Part shown: in pieces, positions 12,292-30,406 of the stretch
Layout: every line of letters starts with the position of its first letter
Position numbering within the stretch: the stretch's first letter is position 1
Source of the DNA: a virus
DNA length: 30,406 nucleotides
Virus record (IMG/VR): IMGVR_UViG_3300021961_000413
Location: 1 to 30,406 of that record
Direction: 5' to 3' (one strand)
Made by a program: the position numbers and the translations under genes
The notes under the pieces: model-generated
What the model was told of the DNA's origin: nothing
What the model saw: only the letters and a program-made list of their open reading frames with translations
Database searches by the model: none

Positions 12292-15200
12292 ATGGCTGAA
12301 CAGATAAAAGACTTTGGTGGAAATGTAAACCGTGATGTTGCATTCAGTAAAGCCAAGGAAGACATACTTTACGATTCGCAAAACTTCAGGATAATCACCG
12401 ATGAAGGCGGGACTCTTGGCGTACGCACCAATATAAAAGGCAATACCAAGATTCTTGAAATTCCCGATACTCCTGCCGAGATAGAATTGATCTTATTAGA
12501 AGAACTGGTTGTAGGACATATATACACTTTGGTTTTCAATATTACAAACTACGCAACTTCGATTACAAGCAGTGTAACTATAACCCTTAATTATTCGGGA
12601 GTAACTTCTTTTTACGGAGCGGTCAAAACACAGTTGCTTACGTATACATTGAATTCTTTGCATGCGCTCTACAATGCGGAAATACTGTTACCTTCGAATT
12701 ATACGAAGCTCATAATACGCGGAACTTTTTCAGGAATAAGTTCTTTTGTCGCAACAGAGGTGGGGCCACCTCCAGTTGATGTGACTTCAAAGGTTTCACT
12801 TTTACTTGCCCGCCCTACTCAAACCGCTTTAAAGATAATAGGTTGGTGCACTATCCGTGATACCATATATCTTCTTACCACAAACGGTACTTTCAATCCC
12901 GATGTAGACCCGCCTCCATACACATCACTTGGGCAATGGTGGCGTCTTGACTATGATAAATCATTGTCTCCTTCAGATCCTTTGAATTACACATTACAAC
13001 TCGTTTACAACAATGAGATGAATGTGACTATTCAAAAACCCGTAGCTAACCCGGGAATGATTGAAGGAAGGTATGAGAACGAGAATATCCAGAAGATATA
13101 CTGGACAGACAATTTCAATGTACCGCGTCAGATAAATGTAGCACCGTCACGTGATTCCATTACAGCGGCGCTTACAGTAGAGCAGCTTAACCTTATTCCG
13201 TCTTTGAACATGGAGCCTGCAAGGATAACAGGAATATCCGACGGAGCTCTTTATGCAGGGGTTTATTTTGTCATGTACAGATTACTCAACCTCAATAATT
13301 CTGAAACAAGGTTTAGCCGTACTTCAGTCGCCTTTCCTATATTAGATGCCAGGGAAGGAGTTGCTGCTGTAGGATATTACCCTGATAAAACCGTAGATGA
13401 TCCTAATGGAATTAATTCGTTTAAATCTATCCGTGTACAAATTGATAACATAGATACTGAATATAACACAATTGAACTTGCAACTGTATGGTATAAGAAC
13501 AATGTTGATCTTCCTGAGATACGGCTAGTCAAACAACTTGGCATTCCTGCAAACGGTAAGATCGATACTTTTATTACTGGCAATGAAGACAAGGTCATCA
13601 TAACACTTGATGAAGCTACTGCCTTTACTACGGCTATAAAAAGATGTAAGACACTTGCAGCCAAGAAGCAGACATTGTTCCTAGGTAACCTTACAATTGC
13701 CAGTCAGAAAGTGGATTTTGACACAAGGACATACAGATTCCCGATAAACAGTACTATTACTACAATAAGGGATGCTTCAGCAAATATCTATACAATAGAT
13801 TCGACGCTGAATTTCCAGATTACTCATATAAACAGTGTACCAACCACACCTTATGATGTTCCGGAAGATTATGACTGCATCCAAGACTATGATGACCAGG
13901 ATCCTACTTCAGACCAGAAGTTCTTATATCTTCCAAACTCGAATGTATTAGGAGGCGAAGGTCCTAATATGAGTTATGTCTTTATAACAAAGACAGCTAT
14001 GAATCTTGATACGGTCGTATTTACTAATAATAACCCTAATTTTCTAGCTGAAAACGGACCTTTTACAACACCTGGTCAAACTACTACTACGTTTGAAAAC
14101 ATATCCTGGACGAATTTTACTGCTCAGAACCAGACATACTCCAACTTCCAATCCCCTTTTAATTACGGATTGTATGAAGGATATACGCGTGATGAGCTTT
14201 ACAGGTTTGGTGTAGTCTTTTACGATCAACTTGACAATCCTACGTTTGTCAATTGGGCGGCCGATATAAGGATGCCTCACATATACATGCCTGATACTAC
14301 TGCTGGAGCATTGTTTACTTCTACAGGATCTGAACCACGAAGCACTGTAAATTATCCTTATCCCAACGGAGATGTTTTAAACACACGGCCTACAAGTTAT
14401 ACAACAGCAACTCAGTATATTTACGGCAATGCGCTTGGAATAAGATTTACATTTAAGAATGTACCTTCTGATTCATATTATCAGACGGCTTCAATTGTAA
14501 GAACAGAACGTACCCAAGGAGACAAACATGTAATTGGACAAGGATTATTCAGGCATTCATATACCGCCGCTAGTTGTTGGGCTGGGGCAGGTGACTGGGA
14601 ATTCCTTTGTCCTATAGATCCTAATGGAAATTCTAGGACTTTTAAACCTGCAAATGGTGATACGTATACTACTTCATCAGGTACGGGAATGGTATGGTCT
14701 TTTCATAGTCCCGAGACAGTAAGGTTTCTTGATCCTACAGGAAGCATTATAAATGAAACAGTACTATCTCCTCCTGGAGCAACGGACACTGTCGAAATAG
14801 TAAGTATCTACGACTCAACACAAAACAAAGGATATTTCGGTTGGTATAATGATGACGAAGAGTATTTTACAGCAGATGGTGGTTATGCTGATGATTTTAA
14901 CATTCCTGGTGGTATTTGCGGTGACGGAGAAATCGAGTATTGGGCAACATTCAGGAAATATTATAATTTCATAGAAACCTCGAGTATCCCTACAGTAATA
15001 AAAGGATATACTGGACCCGGAGGAGGTACTAACAACCCATACAAAGTAGTAAGATTGTTTGATAATGATAGTAAATATTGGAATGCCCAACAAGAAATAT
15101 TTACTACCACAGCTCCATGGTCAAAGAAAATAGCCCCTTGTCTTCCTACCGCTTTTGCAGTAGATCCGCCTGCATGGAAACAAGGAACTGGATGTGATGG

Positions 15201-17127
15201 ACAAAACGCAGGACCTGGATTATCAGGAAATGACGCAGAGCATCATATGAGTGCTTTGGCAAGATGCAATGTACTTGAACTTGATTACAATGAGGCAGTA
15301 CCGGATTTTGCTGAAAATATTTCTTCTAACCGTACAATGTTGTTAAAAGACAACATATGGAATACAGATCGCACATACATAGCTAATTACAAAAAATCAC
15401 CTCCTTTACCTTATGGAGGTAACACTTACTTTACAAGAAGTCTAAATGAATATATCAGCTGTGGAAATTTTGTAAATCTTAATGGAGGATCTGTAGATAC
15501 GATAGTGTTTGGAGGTGATACGGTAATTGAATTGTTTGATAAGATAACAGACCACTTCAATAATTCAGAACACCAAGCAGTTAAAAACGCAGGAGCAAGT
15601 TTTTCACCAGGTCCTAAATGGAGTATAAATTATCCTACTCTTTGCCAATATCCTGCCTTTGTCCGTAATATCATGCGTACGGCTTTTTTCCCAGTTGAAA
15701 CTTCCATTCCGATAGGTTATAGAAGGATACGTCCAGATGAAGCATACTCTGCTACAGCTTTTAACAACGGTGGAAACGTACCTAATAAACTCAGTTGGTT
15801 GGTAGGAAATCCCGATGGTAACCTTGGATCAAATAGGATAGAAGCGGCTGAATATTTCGGACTTGATCCTGTGTATATCCATAATAGCAAAGGCATATAC
15901 AGGTACTTCCCATTCAACCCTTCGACAATACCTACTGAAACATTTGATTGCAGGGTATGGCGTTCTGAGAATAAGATAGACGGTGAACTTATAGAATCCT
16001 GGAGTATATACAAAGCAGGTGCGTTTAAGGATGTAGAATCTGCTTATGGTCCTTTGAACAACCTTGTGGTTTTCCAAGACAAACTTTACTTTATCCAAGA
16101 CAAAGGATTCGGTACGCTGCAGGTTGACGAGCAAAAACTCATTACCGATGCGCAAGGCGAATCGGATCTTGTCCTTGGATCAACAGGATTGCTTGAGCGT
16201 TATGATTACATATCGACCAAGACTGGTACGAAGCATCAGTTCAGTATGAGTGTATCGGATTATACTATGATATGGTTTGATACTCTTGCACGTAAACTCA
16301 TGCGGTATAAACCCGGTGAACTACAACCTGTTTCTGACATCAGAGGTTACCATGCGTTTCTTTACCAAGAAACAGACGGTATCATACAAACTGATGACAA
16401 TCCTTATATATTCCAAGGAGTACATAGTACCTATGATTACAGGTTCAATGAATTCTACATGACGTTTGTACAACCTTCAAACGTATTAAGGGACGGACGT
16501 ACAATGCCTCCTAATCCTTTTACATTAGTATTCAATGAATTGTTTGATGGGTTTGTAGGAAGATATACACACCATCCTACTGTTTACATAAACGACAAGT
16601 CAAACATATTTTCCATACCGGCTAATCTTGATACTCCATTATCTCCTAGTTCGATGTATGTGCATCATTACGGTGATTACTCTGTGTTTTATGATGAAGC
16701 CCCTGCACAATCAACAATAAGTTTTGTAATAAACGAATCTCCTACAATTGAAAAGGTGCTTAACAACCTTGAGGTTTCAGTTGAAGTATTCGATGTAACC
16801 AAGCAGTTGTTTGCACAACCCATGATGTACAAGTTCTTTGACAGGATGCGTGTCTATGACAATTACCAAAACAGTGATTTCATCCAACTGGTTCCCGGAC
16901 TTGCAAGGAAACACAAGACAATATGGAACATCAAGGTTCCATCCGACAGGGTGCTTGATGTTACACAGCCTATATTCGATGCGTCAAATCTAAGTGTCGT
17001 GCGTCCTTCTATAACAAGAAGGTTCAAGGACAAATGGTTCATGGTTGATTTGATATACAACAATGAAGACAATTATAAGATTGTGGCCCATAATGCCAAA
17101 GCCATATTCACTGTAAACTCAAGATAA
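12292..17127 (+). CDS. Muzzle/stabilisation-type tail protein
   Basis: 1611 residues with no membrane segments; almost wholly beta-rich. The N-terminus 'DFGGNVNRDVAFSKAKED' (residues 7-24), the following ILYDSQNFRI, and IYWTDNFNVPRQIN near residue 265 are patterns I associate with the large crAss-like protein often called stabilisation protein and identified structurally as the tail muzzle, which closes the short tail. Length (about 1.4-1.6 thousand residues) and place after the ring genes agree. The last ~150 residues ('IWNIKVPSDRVLDVTQPIF', then RRFKDKWFMVDL) form a conserved-looking C-terminal beta domain. The start follows an A/T-rich leader (gtataataATG). Confidence 0.75.
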   Translation: MAEQIKDFGGNVNRDVAFSKAKEDILYDSQNFRIITDEGGTLGVRTNIKGNTKILEIPDTPAEIELILLEELVVGHIYTLVFNITNYATSITSSVTITLNYSGVTSFYGAVKTQLLTYTLNSLHALYNAEILLPSNYTKLIIRGTFSGISSFVATEVGPPPVDVTSKVSLLLARPTQTALKIIGWCTIRDTIYLLTTNGTFNPDVDPPPYTSLGQWWRLDYDKSLSPSDPLNYTLQLVYNNEMNVTIQKPVANPGMIEGRYENENIQKIYWTDNFNVPRQINVAPSRDSITAALTVEQLNLIPSLNMEPARITGISDGALYAGVYFVMYRLLNLNNSETRFSRTSVAFPILDAREGVAAVGYYPDKTVDDPNGINSFKSIRVQIDNIDTEYNTIELATVWYKNNVDLPEIRLVKQLGIPANGKIDTFITGNEDKVIITLDEATAFTTAIKRCKTLAAKKQTLFLGNLTIASQKVDFDTRTYRFPINSTITTIRDASANIYTIDSTLNFQITHINSVPTTPYDVPEDYDCIQDYDDQDPTSDQKFLYLPNSNVLGGEGPNMSYVFITKTAMNLDTVVFTNNNPNFLAENGPFTTPGQTTTTFENISWTNFTAQNQTYSNFQSPFNYGLYEGYTRDELYRFGVVFYDQLDNPTFVNWAADIRMPHIYMPDTTAGALFTSTGSEPRSTVNYPYPNGDVLNTRPTSYTTATQYIYGNALGIRFTFKNVPSDSYYQTASIVRTERTQGDKHVIGQGLFRHSYTAASCWAGAGDWEFLCPIDPNGNSRTFKPANGDTYTTSSGTGMVWSFHSPETVRFLDPTGSIINETVLSPPGATDTVEIVSIYDSTQNKGYFGWYNDDEEYFTADGGYADDFNIPGGICGDGEIEYWATFRKYYNFIETSSIPTVIKGYTGPGGGTNNPYKVVRLFDNDSKYWNAQQEIFTTTAPWSKKIAPCLPTAFAVDPPAWKQGTGCDGQNAGPGLSGNDAEHHMSALARCNVLELDYNEAVPDFAENISSNRTMLLKDNIWNTDRTYIANYKKSPPLPYGGNTYFTRSLNEYISCGNFVNLNGGSVDTIVFGGDTVIELFDKITDHFNNSEHQAVKNAGASFSPGPKWSINYPTLCQYPAFVRNIMRTAFFPVETSIPIGYRRIRPDEAYSATAFNNGGNVPNKLSWLVGNPDGNLGSNRIEAAEYFGLDPVYIHNSKGIYRYFPFNPSTIPTETFDCRVWRSENKIDGELIESWSIYKAGAFKDVESAYGPLNNLVVFQDKLYFIQDKGFGTLQVDEQKLITDAQGESDLVLGSTGLLERYDYISTKTGTKHQFSMSVSDYTMIWFDTLARKLMRYKPGELQPVSDIRGYHAFLYQETDGIIQTDDNPYIFQGVHSTYDYRFNEFYMTFVQPSNVLRDGRTMPPNPFTLVFNELFDGFVGRYTHHPTVYINDKSNIFSIPANLDTPLSPSSMYVHHYGDYSVFYDEAPAQSTISFVINESPTIEKVLNNLEVSVEVFDVTKQLFAQPMMYKFFDRMRVYDNYQNSDFIQLVPGLARKHKTIWNIKVPSDRVLDVTQPIFDASNLSVVRPSITRRFKDKWFMVDLIYNNEDNYKIVAHNAKAIFTVNSR

Positions 17128-17128
17128 G

Positions 17129-20100
17129 ATGACCTGGTTAAACAAGTTTGACGACGGCGGTAAGTTCGACTTTAAAAAATGGGCCCAAAAAACAGGGCAG
17201 TTTGAAGGTTGGGAAGAAACTGTATACAAGGATACCAAGGGTATCCTCACCATAGGATATGGATTCAATCTTGAGGATCCTGCGATGCGTGCAAAACTCA
17301 AAGCAAAAGGACTTGATGTTCAAGGAATGTTGACTGGAAAAGTAAAGATAAACAAAGAGCAAGCCGCCCCCATTCTTGAAGAGATCTACAAGGAATCCTA
17401 TAATGCTGCAAAATCAAGATTCTCAAACTTTGATTCTTTTCCTGATGAAGTCAAACATACAGTCACTGACATGATTTACAACATGGGTGAGACTAGGTTT
17501 GATCAATTCAAGAAAATGAAAAGCGCCTTGCTTGCTAATAATTTTACTGAAGCTGCAAAGCAAATAGGGGATTCAGCCTATGCAAGTCAAGTAGGCAACA
17601 GGGCCAAAACCCACATAAACCAATTAAACCAAATTGGCAGTTTGACAAGTGCTTCAAATGTGCAGCCTTTTTTCCGTGAGGATATGGCAACCATGCCCAT
17701 GCGTGAAGCCACTTCGGTTTCTCCGTCATATGAGGAACCTGTTCAATTCAGTCCTGTAGCTTCAGATACCACTCCTGCAGCTCCAGTTGAAGCCAATATT
17801 GATCCAACAGATACTTACGTCTGGACTCCAGGCGGCAAGGTTTCTGTAAAAGACTTTGTAGATCAATACGGTGAAAAGGTTTTTGAATCAACTTTTAAAA
17901 CTCCCGTACCGCAATACAAAGATGGAGGACTGACTCTTCCATATTGGAAAGACCTTGACAAACAATACTATATAAACAGCGATCGTACTCCACGTGAATA
18001 TGATAATGGAGGTTATGGATTGGGAAGTCATGTGGTACATGGTGGTCCTACCTGGCCTGAGTATGCCATGGGACTTGACAGTGGTGCCACTTTACACCAG
18101 ACTTTGGATGCATTAAGGGGCAATCCACAACCTAAGATTCTAGACACATCCGCCCAAGGCAATATGCCAAAGAAGGCTGTATATCCATCTTACTATGATC
18201 AAGGGGTAAAGAAGTACTCTTTGCCTGAAGAAGGAAGAAGTCTTTATGGAAAAGGTGGAATGATCAAACGTGCGGATGGTTCATATTCTAAACGTGGGTT
18301 ATGGGACAACATTCGTGATGCAAAGTCAGGTAAAGAACCTACTGACGAAATGCTTAAACAGGAAAGAAAAATACGTGCCGCTGAAAAGAAAGCAGACGGA
18401 GGTCCTATAGGTCCAGAGGAAGAGCAAAAGCCTGGCGTAGCAAGGGTCATGGGTGCTGATGAGGAAGGAACTCCGATATTACGTCCTACCACAGGATACT
18501 ATCTTCCTGAGGTGGAAATATCCGCGGACGCGCCTGATACCTATAACAACTATATCAGGAACAAGTATAAGGACGCAGGTCTTGGCGCAACCATGTTTGG
18601 TTTACCAATAGACTATGCCTTTGGGTTTCCCCAGGCGGCAATGACCAAGGCGTTTACAGGCAAGTACCAGCTTCCTTCAGAAGCCATGGGTATCGAGAAT
18701 CCTGTAGCAGCATTCTTGATAAATGGAGTACTTGATCCTAGTAATCTTGCAGGCGTTGGTTTACTGACCAAGGAAAAAGCGTTGGCCGCTCTTGCCTCTA
18801 GTAAGGAATTAGGACTTCTTTCTAATACATGGAGATTAAATCCTATGGCATATCAATACAATCTTCCTAGAAATACAATGTGGAGAGGGCTTGGTCAAGA
18901 AGGTATGGAAGATGCTGTTAGTTCTGGTCTATTTAGAGCTAAACAAAATGTTGTTCCTGAATATTATCCAGGAACACGTCTTAAAATGAACAAATCTTTT
19001 GGAACAAATCCTTATTTTACACCTAAGTTTAAAACTGTTTCTACATATGGTGATAACTTTTTAGCTGAAGTCCCAAGATCGGCAGCAAATTGGACAAATA
19101 GATATGGTAAACGTCATACTTGGAGTCAATTTGCTGATAGACCTATACCTATAGAAGAGGGTAGAATATTACAGAAAGATTGGTTAAGAGGATACAAGGA
19201 AGTTCCTAAAAAAGAAGATGGTGGTCATGTAACTGATGAATACAAAAAGGTACGTAGCACCGTGCCACGTGTGGCATACACAGCTCCATCAAACATGGGC
19301 AGTGGTCCATGGACACAACGCGGAGTAACTTTTAAAAACGGTGGTCCTACAGATCCAGAACCTCCTGTAGAAAGTGGACTGGCTACACAAGCCATACGCG
19401 CAGCGCTTTATCCTTTCCTTCCTACAAATGCAAGACAACTTACAGCATCAATGATTACAAAAGATTCCAATTTTGGATTACAAGATGCTGGAGAAGGTGA
19501 AAGAATTGCTTTGTACAATACTTTGGAAAAAGCAAGAAAAAGGACAGGCCAAAACAAAGGCGGAACAGAATATGTGGATTATGGCATGGATTACAATACG
19601 GACTTGGAGCATTTGCAAGCCGCTCCATTGAACATATTGACAGGAAGTGCTTTAAGTTCTGACTTCAATGCCGCCACTACTTTTGGAAGGGTGGCGTATG
19701 AGTATGATCCTAAGACACAGACTTACAAGGTTTATGATAGTTATGATTTTGCCAAAACACCTGATATTCAAACAGCATATTCCGGATTTAGAAATGCTGT
19801 AGGTGATGCCGCTGAAGCCAGAGGAATAAGTCCTAAAGGAAAACAATCAAACTACATAGGCAGCATGAGTAAAAAAGAATATCAAAGTAAGGCTCCAAAT
19901 CCTGGAATACTTGATTTCTCATACAGTGATATAAAGAAAACCTTGGCTCCCGTTAACAGTGCGATCAATACAGGTTATGATTACTTCAATAAAGCAAGAA
20001 ATTTTTTAGGATTTGAAGATGGCTCATATGTTGGAGTGACTCCAATGATGAATACAAATGTTCCGGCACCAAGGTACAACAAGACTCCAAATAAAGCCGT

Positions 20101-20191
20101 CATGCCTGTGGTTTATGCCAATGAACCCAATACTCCTGATTGGAGCAAAGGGGCAAAGTTTGAAGACGGTGGTTGGTTAGATAACATTTAA
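17129..20191 (+). CDS. Virion lysozyme/cargo protein, GH24 domain at N-terminus
   Basis: 1020 residues. The N-terminal domain (about 20-170) is a T4-type lysozyme: Glu26, Asp35 and Thr41 reproduce the T4 lysozyme triad spacing (E11, D20, T26) in 'EGWEETVYKDTKGILTIGYG'. After ~200 the protein is a string of segments separated by x-Gly-Gly motifs at residues 10, 266, 294, 305, 376, 424, 698, 738 and 1014. One segment holds 'KRGLWDNIRDAKSG' (388-401) and a Lys-rich helix. Another (about 573-690), made of AT-richer DNA with mostly AGA Arg codons, resembles an ADP-ribosyltransferase-like fold (R586, later IPIEEGRIL). It most likely degrades peptidoglycan during DNA entry; as the only lysozyme here it may also serve lysis. 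Confidence 0.8.
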   Translation: MTWLNKFDDGGKFDFKKWAQKTGQFEGWEETVYKDTKGILTIGYGFNLEDPAMRAKLKAKGLDVQGMLTGKVKINKEQAAPILEEIYKESYNAAKSRFSNFDSFPDEVKHTVTDMIYNMGETRFDQFKKMKSALLANNFTEAAKQIGDSAYASQVGNRAKTHINQLNQIGSLTSASNVQPFFREDMATMPMREATSVSPSYEEPVQFSPVASDTTPAAPVEANIDPTDTYVWTPGGKVSVKDFVDQYGEKVFESTFKTPVPQYKDGGLTLPYWKDLDKQYYINSDRTPREYDNGGYGLGSHVVHGGPTWPEYAMGLDSGATLHQTLDALRGNPQPKILDTSAQGNMPKKAVYPSYYDQGVKKYSLPEEGRSLYGKGGMIKRADGSYSKRGLWDNIRDAKSGKEPTDEMLKQERKIRAAEKKADGGPIGPEEEQKPGVARVMGADEEGTPILRPTTGYYLPEVEISADAPDTYNNYIRNKYKDAGLGATMFGLPIDYAFGFPQAAMTKAFTGKYQLPSEAMGIENPVAAFLINGVLDPSNLAGVGLLTKEKALAALASSKELGLLSNTWRLNPMAYQYNLPRNTMWRGLGQEGMEDAVSSGLFRAKQNVVPEYYPGTRLKMNKSFGTNPYFTPKFKTVSTYGDNFLAEVPRSAANWTNRYGKRHTWSQFADRPIPIEEGRILQKDWLRGYKEVPKKEDGGHVTDEYKKVRSTVPRVAYTAPSNMGSGPWTQRGVTFKNGGPTDPEPPVESGLATQAIRAALYPFLPTNARQLTASMITKDSNFGLQDAGEGERIALYNTLEKARKRTGQNKGGTEYVDYGMDYNTDLEHLQAAPLNILTGSALSSDFNAATTFGRVAYEYDPKTQTYKVYDSYDFAKTPDIQTAYSGFRNAVGDAAEARGISPKGKQSNYIGSMSKKEYQSKAPNPGILDFSYSDIKKTLAPVNSAINTGYDYFNKARNFLGFEDGSYVGVTPMMNTNVPAPRYNKTPNKAVMPVVYANEPNTPDWSKGAKFEDGGWLDNI

Positions 20192-23616: not shown

Positions 23617-26070
23617 ATGCCGTTTTCAATATACGATAAGATACCTAAGTCTCCATTACCTAGTTCTCCCTTTGATTTCATAGCAAAGCTTGCTGAAGGA
23701 CAAAAGCAGGATCTTGATAAACTTGATGCTCGTATTGCTGAAACTCAAGGATTATTTGCAAAACTTACTCCTGCTGAAGGACATGAACCTTGGGCTCAAA
23801 AAGTATCTGATAGATACAATAAAGACTTAAATGATTTAATGGATAAATATGGAGGCAATCCACTTTCAAGGGAATTTAGCAGAGCTCTTACAGGATTAGC
23901 AACAACTTTTGCAAAAGACAGGGAGGTAAGGGATATCATAGACTCACGTGAGTTTTATGAAAAAAACTCAGGTACCATACAACAAGCAATCTATAATGGA
24001 GCTATTGTAAATGCGCCTGGTATTATGGATCAAGAGCATAATTACGTACCAGGAAACAGGACGCGTTATAGTTGGGATGCTTTTAAGGTTACTCCTTTTG
24101 GTGATGCAGGGGCTTCAATAAGAACCATATTCAACATCTTAAGAGACAATAAAATGAAGGATGAAAACATCAAACCTATTGGTGTTAATCCTGATGGTAC
24201 TAATATATATGAAAGCACTGTTACAGAACGTATTTGGAACAATGAAGATACTAGAAAAGAGACAGCTTTGTCAATTCTTAATACCGTCTTTGATCCTACT
24301 CGTCCTGATGCTGGATTCAATTATTTAAGGGCAAACGCTGAACAATTGTTTCTTGGAGATGTAGAGGCTCAAAAAGCTTATGTGGGTGAGTATATTAAAA
24401 ACCAAGGAATTCCTTGGAATGTTAACTGGATTTCTGAAACCAAGACTTTACAGAATGTAAAATCAGGAAAAGGAAGTGGTGATGGAAGTGATGATGTTGC
24501 TAAAAAAGTCGCTGTAAATACTACGGTAGCTTTAGACTATATGACTGATCAACAAGGAAATAGGATTACTACTGCTGATATGTTGCATAATGAAGCTACT
24601 GCATACGAATCTACAATAAATTCAATACTGACTCCTGAAACATTTAATACTATTTCAGATGATTTATTAGGACCTGTTGATGCTTCTGGTAAAAGAACAA
24701 TAGCTCCAAATGCTGTTGTTATGGATGAAACTACCGGCTATAGATTGATAAATACCGCGCTTATACAAGATAAAATAGCAAAGCAACGTGCTGAAGATTA
24801 TAATATGGAGTTAATGCACGCTCAAAATAAACAATTGGCTGCTAAACAAACAGAAATTTATTTCTTAGAGCAAGCTGGATTTAAAGCTATCTATGATAAC
24901 AATGGTAATATTGATATTACAAGTCAAGTTCCTGTTTCTACATTAGGCAAAGCAGAAGCAATTGCATTTGATAAGGCTAGTCGAATCAGTATTAATACTG
25001 AAGCAGGTCCTCAAGAAATGAATTTTATTCCTGGAATAGGAGAAGTAAATGCAACAGAGTGGAATAAAAAATTCAACGCTCCTAATCTTAGGATGACTAG
25101 AGAAGGACTATTAGAATATTTACGAGGTGTTCAAAAAAGCACTAGTGGTCAGACAATAAAATTAACAGATGATGCTATAAATAAATTTATGGCTGACTTT
25201 GATAAAGAGCGTACTATTGCTTTGGCATCCTTGGATAAGAATTACAAAAGGTTTAATGATAGTTTGACTAACTATCTTAATAGTACAATTTATACAAATG
25301 GATACAACTATAGTATTACTAAAGATACGGATAAAAGGCGTATAAAGGATTTGTTACCTCTTGCTTTGGAACAACGTGACATAGAAAGAGCCAACTTTGG
25401 TTCCAAAGGTGGAGATTATGAACAAATTGTATCTGAACAGGATAAAGAAGATATCATTAAAGACGTACTTGAAAAAACAAAAGATGAAAACTATGATTAC
25501 AGTAATTTAAGTGTCAGGTTTGATGAATCTAAAGGAAAATTTGTAGTGGATATTGCGACAGACGATAAAGGAGTTCTTGAAATAGGATCGTTTGATCAAA
25601 GTGCTTTAGCCGCTATAGTACAAGAACAAGATCCTAATTTAAGTACTGTATACTTAAATAAAAAATCAAGTCTTATTGCGCAACTTGAAAGTAGTAATGG
25701 CCGTTTTGCCGCTCTAAATGTTCCTATACAAGATGCTACTGGTAAAGTAATAGAGAATAACAGGGTTGTAGTCAAAAGTGCTTTTGAAAATCATGGTACA
25801 AGTATAACTCAAGGTGATTATTTATTTACTTTACCTGAAGCTCCTGGTAGTGTACTTATAGCTAAGAATCAATGGGCTCTTATCAATATGACGGATGCTT
25901 ATACAAGTTTAAAGCAAAGTGGTAAAACCGGAACTGATTTATCTGATGGTATTGTAAAATACATGGAAGCTTATGGAATAACATCTGTTTCTGACAGAGC
26001 CTATAATGTAGGTGGTAAGTATTTTCCAAGTCAAAGTACCAGGGTAAGTCCTGGTCCTGTGGGAAAGTAA
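23617..26070 (+). CDS. Internal virion (cargo) protein, zero-frame product
   Basis: 817 residues. Mainly helical and charged; no signal peptide. The N-terminus 'FDFIAKLAEGQKQDLDKLD' starts a coiled-coil region, followed by mixed segments and a low-complexity linker 'GKGSGDGSDD' near residue 290. No recognised catalytic motif. It sits between two other large internal-protein candidates, fitting the crAss-like cargo block. The last codons read GTG GGA AAG TAA: a canonical -1 slippery heptamer lies directly before the stop, and the -1 frame stays open for 153 more codons, so this 817-residue protein is probably the major product with a longer 970-residue minor form. The start follows an A/T-rich leader with no Shine-Dalgarno. 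Confidence 0.75.
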   Translation: MPFSIYDKIPKSPLPSSPFDFIAKLAEGQKQDLDKLDARIAETQGLFAKLTPAEGHEPWAQKVSDRYNKDLNDLMDKYGGNPLSREFSRALTGLATTFAKDREVRDIIDSREFYEKNSGTIQQAIYNGAIVNAPGIMDQEHNYVPGNRTRYSWDAFKVTPFGDAGASIRTIFNILRDNKMKDENIKPIGVNPDGTNIYESTVTERIWNNEDTRKETALSILNTVFDPTRPDAGFNYLRANAEQLFLGDVEAQKAYVGEYIKNQGIPWNVNWISETKTLQNVKSGKGSGDGSDDVAKKVAVNTTVALDYMTDQQGNRITTADMLHNEATAYESTINSILTPETFNTISDDLLGPVDASGKRTIAPNAVVMDETTGYRLINTALIQDKIAKQRAEDYNMELMHAQNKQLAAKQTEIYFLEQAGFKAIYDNNGNIDITSQVPVSTLGKAEAIAFDKASRISINTEAGPQEMNFIPGIGEVNATEWNKKFNAPNLRMTREGLLEYLRGVQKSTSGQTIKLTDDAINKFMADFDKERTIALASLDKNYKRFNDSLTNYLNSTIYTNGYNYSITKDTDKRRIKDLLPLALEQRDIERANFGSKGGDYEQIVSEQDKEDIIKDVLEKTKDENYDYSNLSVRFDESKGKFVVDIATDDKGVLEIGSFDQSALAAIVQEQDPNLSTVYLNKKSSLIAQLESSNGRFAALNVPIQDATGKVIENNRVVVKSAFENHGTSITQGDYLFTLPEAPGSVLIAKNQWALINMTDAYTSLKQSGKTGTDLSDGIVKYMEAYGITSVSDRAYNVGGKYFPSQSTRVSPGPVGK
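26038..26055 (+). promoter_or_regulatory. Hairpin just upstream of the slippery site
   Basis: ACCAGG (26038-26043) and CCTGGT (26050-26055) form a perfect 6-bp stem with a 6-base loop, ending 5 bases before the slippery heptamer. The segment 26048-26054 is also perfectly complementary to 26097-26103, the 3' arm of the downstream stem, so the two structures could compete. Confidence 0.4.
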
Positions 26071-26105
26071 CAGGTTCTGGCTCTTCGTCTGGGATACCAG
26101 GACCT
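26061..26105 (+). promoter_or_regulatory. Programmed -1 ribosomal frameshift signal
   Basis: The heptamer G GGA AAG (26061-26067) is in the zero frame as X XXY YYZ and is the same heptamer used by the phage lambda G/GT frameshift. The stop TAA follows at once (26068-26070). After a 4-base spacer, 26072-26080 pairs with 26097-26105 in a 9-bp stem (one G-T wobble) with a 16-base loop, the expected place for a stimulatory structure. Slippage leads into an open -1 frame to 26528. Confidence 0.8.
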
Positions 26106-26528
26106 AACAATACTCCACGCAATAACACAAGTGGAGGCACAGGCAATACGACACGCAAAAAAGGACAGACTCTTGCGGATTACAATATGAACCCAGGTAA
26201 CCTCAGGTTTGCAAATCAAACAGGAGCTGTCAATGAAAATGGTTGGGCTAAGTTTAGCAATCCTCAAGATGGTATAAAAGCCCTTGAAAGTCAGATCATG
26301 CGTGATGCCAAAAGAGGTGACAATATTCGTACCTTTATAGAAGACTATGCACCTAATAATGAAAATGATACCGAGGCTTATATAAAACACATGGCCAGTA
26401 CCCTTGGAGTATCTGAAGACACTTCATTGACGGATATCATTTCTTCACAAGGTATAACGGCTATTGCCAAAGCAATTGCCATGAAAGAAGATGGAAATTA
26501 TTACAATACGATAAAAGACTTATTTTAA
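26067..26528 (+). CDS. Minus-1 frame extension: linker plus NPGNLR wall-domain
   Basis: 153 residues reached by -1 slippage at 26061-26067, giving a 970-residue fusion. The first ~40 are a Gly/Ser/Asn/Thr linker ('SGSSSGIPGP', 'TSGGTGNTT'). From fusion residue ~857 the sequence reads MNPGNLRF, then GWAKFSNPQDGIKAL, FIEDYAPNNENDTEAYIKHM and LGV. This conserved order (NPGN-I/L-R, aromatic/Phe then Gly-Ile, YAPP.EN.T..Y) is one I recognise from phage virion proteins annotated as structural or transglycosylase-like. An ATG at 26187 lies exactly at the domain edge, but starting there would waste the linker, which is open back to the slippery site. The next gene starts 2 bases after this stop. Confidence 0.75.
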   Translation, partial: VTGSGSSSGIPGPNNTPRNNTSGGTGNTTRKKGQTLADYNMNPGNLRFANQTGAVNENGWAKFSNPQDGIKALESQIMRDAKRGDNIRTFIEDYAPNNENDTEAYIKHMASTLGVSEDTSLTDIISSQGITAIAKAIAMKEDGNYYNTIKDLF

Positions 26529-26530
26529 AA

Positions 26531-29500
26531 ATGAGACCGAACCTTTTAAAAATCAATCCTAAGACACAACAAACCTATACTCCTGCTGAACTTGCTGAAC
26601 TGGATCTGCAGAAAAGAGATGCTGAAATATCAGGCGCTCCTTTTGGAGGTCTTGAATCTGTTAAGACTGGAAGTATCCGTGAAATTGTACCTGATGCTAC
26701 AAATGATTTCTTTGAGTATTCAAGGTCAGGATTTGTAATAGGTAATGACAATGAGGAGACTCGTGCCCAGTTGCAACCTTGGTATGAGCAATTAGGTAAT
26801 GCCACTGTCAAAATGGGGGGCTTGGCAGGAACAACTTTTCTTGATGGTACTGTAGGTTTATTAGCTGGTCTTGCCAACATAGGTATGGCAAGTAGTGAAC
26901 AAGGTGTTGTTAATGCTTTTGTTGATAATCCTTTTAGTAGTTGGATGGTTGATTTGCAAGAACAAATGGAGCGTGCTCTTCCCAACTATCGTACAAAAGA
27001 AGAACAGCAAAATGCGTTTTATGAAAACATGTTGTCAGGGACAGGTGCCGCCAATTTCTGGGGTGATACGGTATTGAAGAATGCCGGATTTGCAATTGGA
27101 GCCCTTGGAGCAGGTGTGGTTACTGGAGGTGCAGGCGCTGAATTATTAGGACTTAACCGTTTAATGAAAACCTCTCAGCTTCTTGAGGGTCTTACTCTTG
27201 CAGCAAAAGAAGGTAAGGTACTATCCCAAGCTGAAGTAGCTGCTGCAAAAACACTTACTGCGGAAGGATTAGCCTCAAGTCGTGCGGCGGATGCCATAGC
27301 TGAACTTGAGAAAGTGACAAAAGCCATAAAAGCAAAAACCGCTCAAAACCAATTGATATCCTCTTTTGTAGGATCAGTAGGTGAAGCAAGGATAGAAGCC
27401 TTAAGCAATTCAAGGGAATTCCAAAAAACCCGTATCCAAGAATATGACAAGGCTTTGGAAGACGGATTGATAACACAAGAAGAGTATCAAGACAAGATGA
27501 ATAATCTTGACAATGATGTTTTGAATTATCAGAACTCTTTGTTTGGCGCAAACCTTGCGCTGTTGAGTATTTCAAATTACTCACAGTTCAAGAATGTATT
27601 TTCAAAAGGATTCACTCCAAACAAAATAGCTACAAACGCAGTCAAGGAAGTGGAGAAGGATGGTCTTCAATTGTATGAATTGGCTGCCCGTACCAGACTT
27701 CAAAAAGGAATGGATTATGCCAAACTCCTGAAGAATCCTTTGGTTGAAATGACGGAAGAACAAGGACAGTATGCTTTGCAGAAAGCGGCTGATACTTACT
27801 ATTCCATGAAGACTGACAATGACGCCAACTCGATAATGAAGAACATGATCTTTTCTTTCGGTCAAGGATTGAAAGAGGCTTATGGTACAGCTGATGGTTG
27901 GGAGAATGCCTTTGTCGGAATGATAATAGGTGGTCTGGGCGTGCCTACCATAAAACGTAAGGAATCAGGGAAGTATGGCCTGGGTCTTGCTGGCGGAGTA
28001 ATGGAGGATTACAGGGAACAGAAACTTGAAAGGGACAGGCTTGAGATGGGGGTCAATACAGCCAATAGCCTTATCAAGGATTCAATGACACAGAAGCTTT
28101 ATGATTCAAGTGTCGTAAATGTCGCCCTTGAAAAGAAGTTCAACCAAGCTGTACAGGAGAATGACCGTATGAACGGCAATCTCATATCAGCCATGCAGCT
28201 TGCAAACATGGTTGATGCCTTTACCCAGATAGGAAGATATGATGACCTGGTAAAACGTCTGCAGGATGAGAACAACCTCAGTGCTGCGGAATTGAGGCAA
28301 AAGTACAGGACAAAGGCACAAAGTCCTATTACCGGCAAAGAACAGGATGTTGATTTCTTCAACAACATGACTGATGACCAGGTAAAGAATTACATCAAGG
28401 ACAAGTCTGAGACTGCAATAGCCCGTGCTGAAAAGATAAAGAAGATCCGTGAGAACATAGATGTCAGGTTTTCAAATCACTCTGAAGACGCTAGAAAAGA
28501 CCTTCTTTTAAAGTCCGCTGGAATTGTAGACATGGACGAAAGGATCACCAAGCTTCTTGATGAACTGAAAGTCGATACTGCGAATAACTTCCATAGGGGA
28601 CTTGAGAACCTGAAAAAGAACCTTACTCCTCAGGAGTTCAGTTCAATGCTTACAAACATCGCCGTATCTGACTTTTCAGATTTTGCGACTCCTGTTGATC
28701 TTGAGCAGTTCCTTAAAAAGCAGAACGGTCTTGCAAATTACGAACGCCTTGTAAAGGAATACATAGATTACCAGACTGATGTAGAGAAAAAAATAAACTT
28801 TGCCGAGAAAGCCCGTGACCTTTACGGCTTGATTGCAAAGAGGCAAATGTTCAATGACACTTATTTCAAGATGTCTGATCCGGAATATGCCGCCAATCAG
28901 GATGCCGCGAATGAGTCATTCAGAAATGAAGCTCAGATTGCACAGCGTGCATCTGATGAAAGACGTTACCGTCTTTACAAGGAGAATACAAGTGACGATC
29001 CTGAGTTTGGATTTGACAGTACTGAGTTCGAGGTTATCACTGGACGTAATGAGATGAACACTGTGAAAGGTGTGAAGACCAAGGAAGATGGTACCAAGGA
29101 GGAAGTGGGTCCCATTCAATTTGTGCGTAAGGATGATGAGGTACGTGAATCCAAGACAGGAGACAAGTATCAGACTTACTACTACCTTGATGAGAATGGC
29201 AAGGAAAAGAAGATTGACATTCCCAATCCTATAGAGGATTCAAGACAGGAGGACGCCGTGACAAGGTTGAAGTATGCCAAAGGGGATGCCAATAACCTTG
29301 TTGATGAGAATGGAAACAAGTACAGTCTTGACGATCTTGTGCAGGATCCTACCTTCATGAAGTCAAAGGCTGTTTCAATAGGAGAACAAAGGCAACAGAT
29401 AATAGATGGCGTAAGACAAGAGACTCTCAAGCAGTTGTTTGACAACAACGCCAAGCTTATACAAAACATAAGCACACAGATAAAAAGCACGCAAGAGGCT

Positions 29501-30406
29501 ATTGACCAGGCAAAAGCATTGCTAGCCCGTGCACGCGCCAACAAATCAGGTAAGACACGAGTAAAGATAAACGGAAAGATAACCGTCTATACGATCTTCG
29601 GACTTGAAGCTGACCTTGCAAACCTTGAAAAGGGTCTTGAAGATCTTTACAAGCAACGCAAGGATACAAGTGACAACAGCCGTGAGATCCTTTTCAAGAT
29701 GCGTCAAGCCGAAGCGAAAGGATTCACAAGAGGACAGTTTGCAGAAGACATTGCAGCGATTGAAAAGCAGAACGCCGATGTGCAGAAGTCCTTGGATCTT
29801 GCCACTGAAAAAGCGAAGAAACTAAGAAGACTTATCCAAAGACTCAAGAACCTTGTAGGAGTGGTCTATCCGAAGTTCAAGGCGATGTACCGCAAAATGA
29901 ATGGGGTGGATCCTTCACAAGAGGATTATGAGTTTGTAAAGAACAACCTCAAGACCTTCGGAATACTTTGGTGGTCCAAGAACATGAATGAGGAGTTGTC
30001 AAAACTCAAAGCGGAAGAGGCAGCCAGGTATGAGAACATAACTGCAAGGGAAGAGGAACTTGCCGGAATTGAGCAGGAGATAGCCGAGCTTCAGGATATG
30101 CTGAAGATGTCAAATCAAATGATCGCAGAGATCAAGAAGGACCAACAGTTCTTTGAAGAAGGTTTGGCAAAGGTGCTTGCCGCCCGTAGGGCTTCACAGA
30201 CTCCTGCTGCAAAGAATGCAGAAGCCGCAAGTAAGAAAGCCACTAACCCCAAATCAAAAGGTATTGATGAAGAGGTTACGGCTGAAGAGGAGGTCAAGCG
30301 TCAGAAGTTCTCATTGAAGGGGTTGATGAAATCCATCATGAACATCTTCAGTACCACTGGTAGGCATATCAATGCTGACAATACTCTTACAAAAGTAACC
30401 AGTCAA
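26531..30406 (+). CDS. Giant virion cargo protein, incomplete at right edge
   Basis: The frame is open from ATG 26531 to the last base: at least 1292 residues. Two Gly/Ala-rich hydrophobic stretches (about 96-123 and 185-210) could enter membranes. The sequence between them includes 'LQEQMERALPNYRTKEE', a pattern seen in large crAss-like internal proteins. Residues 480-900 are helical and charged. Around 880-940 is a small beta segment ('DKYQTYYYLDENGKEKKID'). About 960-1215 is a long coiled coil, then a Lys/Ala-rich linker. In crAss-like genomes the block after the muzzle holds very large cargo proteins and a virion RNA polymerase further on. No catalytic motif is visible in this part. The start follows the previous stop by two bases behind an A-run. 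Confidence 0.75.
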   Translation, partial: MRPNLLKINPKTQQTYTPAELAELDLQKRDAEISGAPFGGLESVKTGSIREIVPDATNDFFEYSRSGFVIGNDNEETRAQLQPWYEQLGNATVKMGGLAGTTFLDGTVGLLAGLANIGMASSEQGVVNAFVDNPFSSWMVDLQEQMERALPNYRTKEEQQNAFYENMLSGTGAANFWGDTVLKNAGFAIGALGAGVVTGGAGAELLGLNRLMKTSQLLEGLTLAAKEGKVLSQAEVAAAKTLTAEGLASSRAADAIAELEKVTKAIKAKTAQNQLISSFVGSVGEARIEALSNSREFQKTRIQEYDKALEDGLITQEEYQDKMNNLDNDVLNYQNSLFGANLALLSISNYSQFKNVFSKGFTPNKIATNAVKEVEKDGLQLYELAARTRLQKGMDYAKLLKNPLVEMTEEQGQYALQKAADTYYSMKTDNDANSIMKNMIFSFGQGLKEAYGTADGWENAFVGMIIGGLGVPTIKRKESGKYGLGLAGGVMEDYREQKLERDRLEMGVNTANSLIKDSMTQKLYDSSVVNVALEKKFNQAVQENDRMNGNLISAMQLANMVDAFTQIGRYDDLVKRLQDENNLSAAELRQKYRTKAQSPITGKEQDVDFFNNMTDDQVKNYIKDKSETAIARAEKIKKIRENIDVRFSNHSEDARKDLLLKSAGIVDMDERITKLLDELKVDTANNFHRGLENLKKNLTPQEFSSMLTNIAVSDFSDFATPVDLEQFLKKQNGLANYERLVKEYIDYQTDVEKKINFAEKARDLYGLIAKRQMFNDTYFKMSDPEYAANQDAANESFRNEAQIAQRASDERRYRLYKENTSDDPEFGFDSTEFEVITGRNEMNTVKGVKTKEDGTKEEVGPIQFVRKDDEVRESKTGDKYQTYYYLDENGKEKKIDIPNPIEDSRQEDAVTRLKYAKGDANNLVDENGNKYSLDDLVQDPTFMKSKAVSIGEQRQQIIDGVRQETLKQLFDNNAKLIQNISTQIKSTQEAIDQAKALLARARANKSGKTRVKINGKITVYTIFGLEADLANLEKGLEDLYKQRKDTSDNSREILFKMRQAEAKGFTRGQFAEDIAAIEKQNADVQKSLDLATEKAKKLRRLIQRLKNLVGVVYPKFKAMYRKMNGVDPSQEDYEFVKNNLKTFGILWWSKNMNEELSKLKAEEAARYENITAREEELAGIEQEIAELQDMLKMSNQMIAEIKKDQQFFEEGLAKVLAARRASQTPAAKNAEAASKKATNPKSKGIDEEVTAEEEVKRQKFSLKGLMKSIMNIFSTTGRHINADNTLTKVTSQ

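Follow-up and report, generated by a model that had tools for sequence, protein, structure and literature searches.

It is very likely that the last gene before the giant gene in a 30.4-kb virus record (hereafter the window, i.e., the whole stretch of DNA that was analysed) is translated with a programmed -1 ribosomal frameshift at a G GGA AAG heptamer, giving a minority 970-aa form of a presumed cargo protein that carries a wall-cutting domain. The signal is seen directly in the DNA, and so is the -1 frame, which is open here and under selection in relatives; the arrangement as a whole recurs in other phages. The slip itself is inferred, as no protein evidence is available.

The putative slip site and the gene that carries it

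The 0 frame of the 817-aa gene ends, by direct reading of the window, in CCT GTG GGA AAG TAA (Table 1). A preliminary description of this DNA had reported a slippery heptamer in the right frame abutting a TAA stop, followed by a 4-base spacer and a 9-bp stem-loop, and each of these elements was found exactly as described, the spacer between heptamer and stem being TAAC (26068-26071). The stem-loop has a predicted folding energy of -14.7 kcal/mol. The region 26068-26130 folds with z = -2.7 relative to dinucleotide shuffles, and folding as good as this is found in only about 2.5% of random ORF ends. The bare GGGAAAG string is not rare (2 copies in the window against about 4 expected); in the phase G GGA AAG it occurs once in the main genes of the window, at this site. 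In the predicted fold of 26031-26110 the heptamer is preceded, at a distance of 5 nt, by a further hairpin, ACCAGG/CCTGGT (26038-26055), which might modulate the slip if it forms as predicted. Shine-Dalgarno-like upstream stimulators are common at E. coli frameshift sites; they are not obligatory.

Table 1. Features of the two-frame gene and its surroundings in the window, and the kinds of extension found at equivalent junctions
Feature	Position or locus	Strand	Basis or remark
Crassvirus muzzle/stabilization protein	12292..17127	+	phrog_28748, 6.4e-92; tblastn to named crassviruses
817-aa gene, 0-frame product, last before giant gene	23617..26070	+	homologues in L049/L051, E about 2e-50
Slippery heptamer G GGA AAG, X XXY YYZ phase	26061..26067	+	sole in-frame copy in main genes
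-1 frame extension, 153 codons after the slip plus stop	26067..26528	+	frame open from 26019
0-frame stop TAA, adjoining heptamer	26068..26070	+	direct reading
Stem-loop, AGGTTCTGG (26072-26080) with CCAGGACCT (26097-26105)	26072..26105	+	9 bp, one G-U, 4 nt past heptamer
Phage lysozyme/endolysin-type domain in extension	26181..26507	+	part aligned to PDB 9vvp_L
Giant gene start, cut by window end	26531..30406	+	phrog_32390 match; gene order
Extension group 1	window		endolysin-type
Extension group 2	L034		Phage_lysozyme2, PF18013, 3.4e-18
Extension group 3	L049/L051		phrog_90 endolysin, 3.1e-12
Extension group 4	L084		NlpC/P60, PF00877, 2e-7
Extension group 5	L035/L063/L143/L159		lysozyme-like by motif only (E-S-G ... 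G-K-Y-Q)

The window can be placed as Crassvirales-like by its muzzle homologue together with a syntenic cargo/giant-gene module, the muzzle being followed by proteins of 1020, 1125 and 817 aa, then by the extension and the giant gene. The virion cargo of crAss001 includes gp47 (262 kDa) besides the cargo proteins gp45 and gp46 (PMC10172136). Direct comparison of the 817-aa protein with proteins at the gp46 position was not significant, and bridging profiles gave weak N-terminal matches only. The 817-aa gene is presumed to encode cargo by position and a weak N-terminal profile match alone. Its homology to the gut counterparts does not go beyond weak N-terminal similarity, so the label is positional. 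The term "cargo gene" used in the preliminary description thus holds for the place before the giant gene and goes further than the homology supports. The 817-aa protein is probably injected together with the DNA. As a separate observation, the 1020-aa gene, the first after the muzzle (17129-20191), encodes an N-terminal Phage_lysozyme domain (PF00959, 2e-8) and is a candidate for a second virion wall enzyme of this phage, in this case in frame.

The -1 frame is open back through the 0-frame stop and closes at 26526-26528. The predicted fusion has 817 + 153 = 970 residues with the junction GK-VTGSG; the 153 codons, the 970 residues and the junction are as given in the first reading. The extension (P0002) had no significant match in Pfam, and it matched phrog_873 endolysin (8.5e-21), phrog_2276 tape measure (8.3e-18), phrog_7182 "tail injection transglycosylase" (5.7e-13) and the solved phage protein Gp29 (PDB 9vvp_L, 1.5e-12); the first and last of these substantiate the earlier remark that the -1 frame contains a recognisable domain. 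The extension is endolysin-type and does not qualify as a frameshift-added Ig-like domain. Its domain family has places in 367 phage records, T7-like internal virion proteins included. A linker rich in G, S, T, and N lies between the cargo part and the domain. The AlphaFold model of the extension alone was poor (pLDDT 44).

Equivalent junctions in related phages

Relatives were located with the muzzle protein as anchor because no usable relatives came from searching viral contigs directly with the extension and with the cargo protein, or phages with the cargo protein. The muzzle searches gave some 190 loci, many of them short or overlapping, and searches with a cargo alignment and a giant-gene alignment found only phages already known from them. 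Among genome contigs a first muzzle alignment found nothing and a second found six MAG contigs; those that reach the site have no extension. About 40 loci, and more besides, cover the site, and in these the start of the giant gene falls within a range from 31 nt upstream to 35 nt downstream of the preceding stop. A separate wall-enzyme-like ORF, where one intervenes, always occupies the -1 frame, and this frame continues open upstream across the stop, as observed at all nine distinct junctions: the window, L034 (G007), L035 (= L006 = L007), L049, L051, L063, L143 (extended as L196), L159, and L084 (= L085 = L086). These nine are not all independent, as L049 and L051 are near relatives and L063, L143, and L159 share a domain. 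The extensions form five groups without mutual BLASTP similarity (Table 1), and their domains resemble kinds borne by phage virion or lysis proteins. For the L159 family "lysozyme-like" rests on motifs, since no fold matched its model (pLDDT 75) significantly. The window and L049/L051 share a homologous cargo body (about 31% identity) but have non-homologous extensions, which amounts to a domain swap behind the same type of junction.

Slippery heptamers abut the stop at four of the nine junctions, as G GGA AAG in the window and as A AAA AAG in L034, L049, and L051. In L063, L143, and L159 G GGA AAG is found 42-45 nt before the stop. One or the other thus lies at most 48 nt from the stop at 7/9 junctions, compared to 10 of 1109 other ends, taken from ORFs of at least 150 codons in related phages (Fisher p = 1.6e-12), and abuts it at 4/9 compared to 0/1109 (p = 1.9e-9), in line with the earlier opinion that such a coincidence is hard to get by chance. 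The p-values are optimistic, as the junctions are not all independent and both heptamers were picked after a generic scan; counted once per domain group, a strong heptamer is present in four of five groups. The generic X XXY YYZ scan did not discriminate (22/201 -1 junctions versus 18/119 +1 junctions, many of TTTAAA types), which is why the test was limited to A AAA AAG and G GGA AAG. A candidate in L097 (3260-4275), where A AAA AAG precedes a stop by 3 nt and the -1 frame is open, was rejected, as it is actually an ATGA overlap of two genes.

The stem starts 4 nt after the heptamer in the window, 6 nt in L049/L051 (9-bp stem), 7 nt in L063, 5-6 nt in L143, and about 6 nt in L159 (all three with a strong stem), and 2 nt in L034, where the spacer is short. 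Between L143 and L159 nine pairs of the stem are kept, with one double change from A-U to G-C and one change from U-G to C-G; these were counted by hand, as a MAFFT alignment of the four L035-type junctions leaves the 3' stem arms unaligned. L049 and L051 are only 72% identical over the 50 nt that precede the stop, yet do not differ in heptamer, stop or stem arms. Two junctions are weaker cases: L035 has A AAC CCC or G GGG GGA in place of either strong heptamer, and L084, with its run of nine A, lacks a good stem. Such a run is a typical transcriptional slippage sequence, and it is what speaks for the frame being shifted by RNA polymerase and not by the ribosome. It is very improbable that this accounts for the arrangement, however, as GGGAAAG in the window, L063, L143, and L159 stands without a long homopolymer, and a ribosomal mechanism agrees with the in-frame X XXY YYZ phase and with the stems that follow.

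The -1 ORF of L159/L143 is under purifying selection (dN 0.29 and dS 0.97, compared to 0.41 and 0.72 for the cargo body). The frame by itself could also be read from a start of its own, and the hydrolase would then be a separate small protein made by translational coupling or internal initiation with the heptamer as a bystander. In the window such a protein cannot be excluded, because an ATG (26187) sits at the edge of the domain. Start codons between stop and domain are likewise present in L049/L051, L063, and L034, that of L063 being an ATG 5 nt past its stop, and the -1 phase is favoured by coupled gene overlaps too. Nevertheless this origin of the hydrolase is unlikely. The first ATG, GTG, or TTG of the -1 frame is codon 106 in L159 and codon 73 in L035, in both within the domain, so that the domain could not be made there by independent initiation at the usual codons. 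Separate synthesis also leaves unexplained the heptamers, absent or rare at the 1109 other ORF ends, the -1 frame that is open back through the stop, and the fact that other wall domains are fused in frame at this position.

These fusions are found in eight loci (L010, L011, L015, L023, L064, L069, L074, and L173), where the product has a C-terminal HxxGxAxD ... EWWH domain in frame. The domain is labelled M15 from this motif and from weak matches to M15 carboxypeptidase profiles (LdcB, DacB, YodJ). The extension is lacking in L130, the muzzle of which is 47% identical to that of L084, and the intervening ORF is absent from the reference phages cr1_1, cr118_1, cr106_1, cr128_1, DAC15, and phi14:2. 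Presence, absence and exchange among relatives indicate that the extension has been gained, lost and exchanged. An extra 272-aa ORF in L173 was considered as an enzyme and rejected, as it resembles the giant gene start.

Homologues with the two parts in one frame and no slippery site had been named beforehand as one observation that would refute a frameshift. In-frame fusions do exist in other relatives, but with a different, M15-like domain, and for this reason they do not indicate a sequencing error in the window. An assembly error or recent mutation, i.e., a base missing from a contig that truly has one reading frame, is conceivable in so far as the lineage of the window is represented at the junction by one contig only and relatives have in-frame fusions of other domains. 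It can hardly be upheld, as the same -1 offset with a slippery heptamer is found in different phages from different metagenomes and as identical junctions recur in independent assemblies (L006/L007 and L084/L085/L086). The conservation check proposed earlier gave support from distant relatives, in which heptamer, stem and -1 architecture recur. No homologous junction followed by an identical domain turned up, as the contigs of the close relatives, L002 and L003, end before the site.

Some of the contigs contain other irregularities. The muzzle match of L003 (4192-8951) covers the whole protein at ~94% identity with a longest open frame of just 1121 codons, and is read as an interrupted copy or an assembly error. 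In L002 about 2 kb (15750-17820) within the homologue of the 1020-aa gene of the window is unmatched, and the order of matches is rearranged. Cargo or giant genes are divided into consecutive ORFs in L173 (20154-20972) and L164 (12050-13702), probably by assembly indels or as broken genes. The structural genes of L125 (cr56_1) are fragmented under table 11, which fits stop-codon recoding in that lineage, and L125 was excluded from the ORF-end statistics.

A proposed role at entry and its precedents

Programmed frameshifting would work as follows. A minority of the ribosomes on the 817-aa gene would slip by -1 at G GGA AAG and continue in the -1 frame, with assistance from the stem-loop that follows and possibly also from the neighbouring stop codon; the efficiency is inferred, as is the slip. 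The short 817-aa form would be the bulk cargo protein, and a few 970-aa copies per particle would carry the enzyme and open the cell wall locally at ejection, so that the slip would limit the amount of hydrolase made. Packaging in the virion, enzymatic activity and the role at entry are likewise inferences. On this reading the C-terminus of the gene serves, in this phage group, as a docking site for exchangeable wall-acting domains, where those that arrived out of frame are read via frameshift signals and others are fused in frame.

It is tempting to extend this to environmental crass-like phages in general, and here our confidence is lower, although we consider it probable that -1 frameshifting is a recurrent adaptor, by which the last cargo gene repeatedly gains unrelated peptidoglycan-cutting domains behind slippery signals and a set minority of the ejected cargo bears an enzyme. 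This suggests a way for crass-like phages to set the dose of a wall-opening enzyme at entry, and how the wall is opened at entry is unsolved both for the most abundant viruses of the gut and for their relatives in the environment. The junctions also form a natural experiment, with unrelated enzyme domains independently placed behind -1 signals at a single gene position. Because gene callers split such genes, annotations list the enzyme as an ORF of its own or miss it.

Neither frameshifting in crassviruses nor a frameshift-added wall hydrolase was found reported in open-access full-text literature, which is no proof of absence; within that literature the earlier statement that no frameshift fusing a wall-acting domain to a crAss-like cargo protein had been described was not contradicted. 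The mechanism is known from lambda G/GT and from Ig-like domains, and its use for a wall-cutting domain on cargo looks new.

In lambda G/GT a -1 shift at G GGA AAG gives a C-terminally extended minor product, and the window is alike in heptamer, direction and type of product. The G and GT proteins are assembly chaperones encoded upstream of the tape measure gene in long-tailed phages, whereas the window has a presumed cargo gene of a short-tailed-type phage with an extension that is predicted to be enzymatic. This two-frame gene sits between the muzzle-proximal genes and the giant gene, and it does not qualify as a tail chaperone gene of the G/GT kind (for the tail assembly frameshift see Xu et al., 2004, as cited in PMC8008677). 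T7-type gp16 is similar in that an ejected protein cuts the wall at entry, and the domain family of the window is found in internal virion proteins of Kayfunavirus and other phages. In gp16 and similar proteins, however, the domain is in the main reading frame and hence in every copy. crAss001 has the same neighbourhood of muzzle, cargo genes (gp45 and gp46) and giant gene, but neither a wall domain nor a frameshift is reported for it (PMC10172136). The closest precedent is the Ig-like domains of phage proteins (Fraser et al., 2006; Atkins et al., 2016, PMC5009743; examples are phage T3 and Lactobacillus phage A2), some of which are in frame and some added by a -1 or +1 shift, a pattern that is attributed to non-homologous recombination and selection (PMC5009743). 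There, as here, a minority of a virion protein gains an exchangeable C-terminal domain that in relatives is in frame or absent. Their domains are Ig-like and sit on coat or tail proteins, whereas here the domain is a wall-cutting enzyme, its carrier is a presumed ejected cargo protein of crass-like phages, and one position is shared by several unrelated enzymes.
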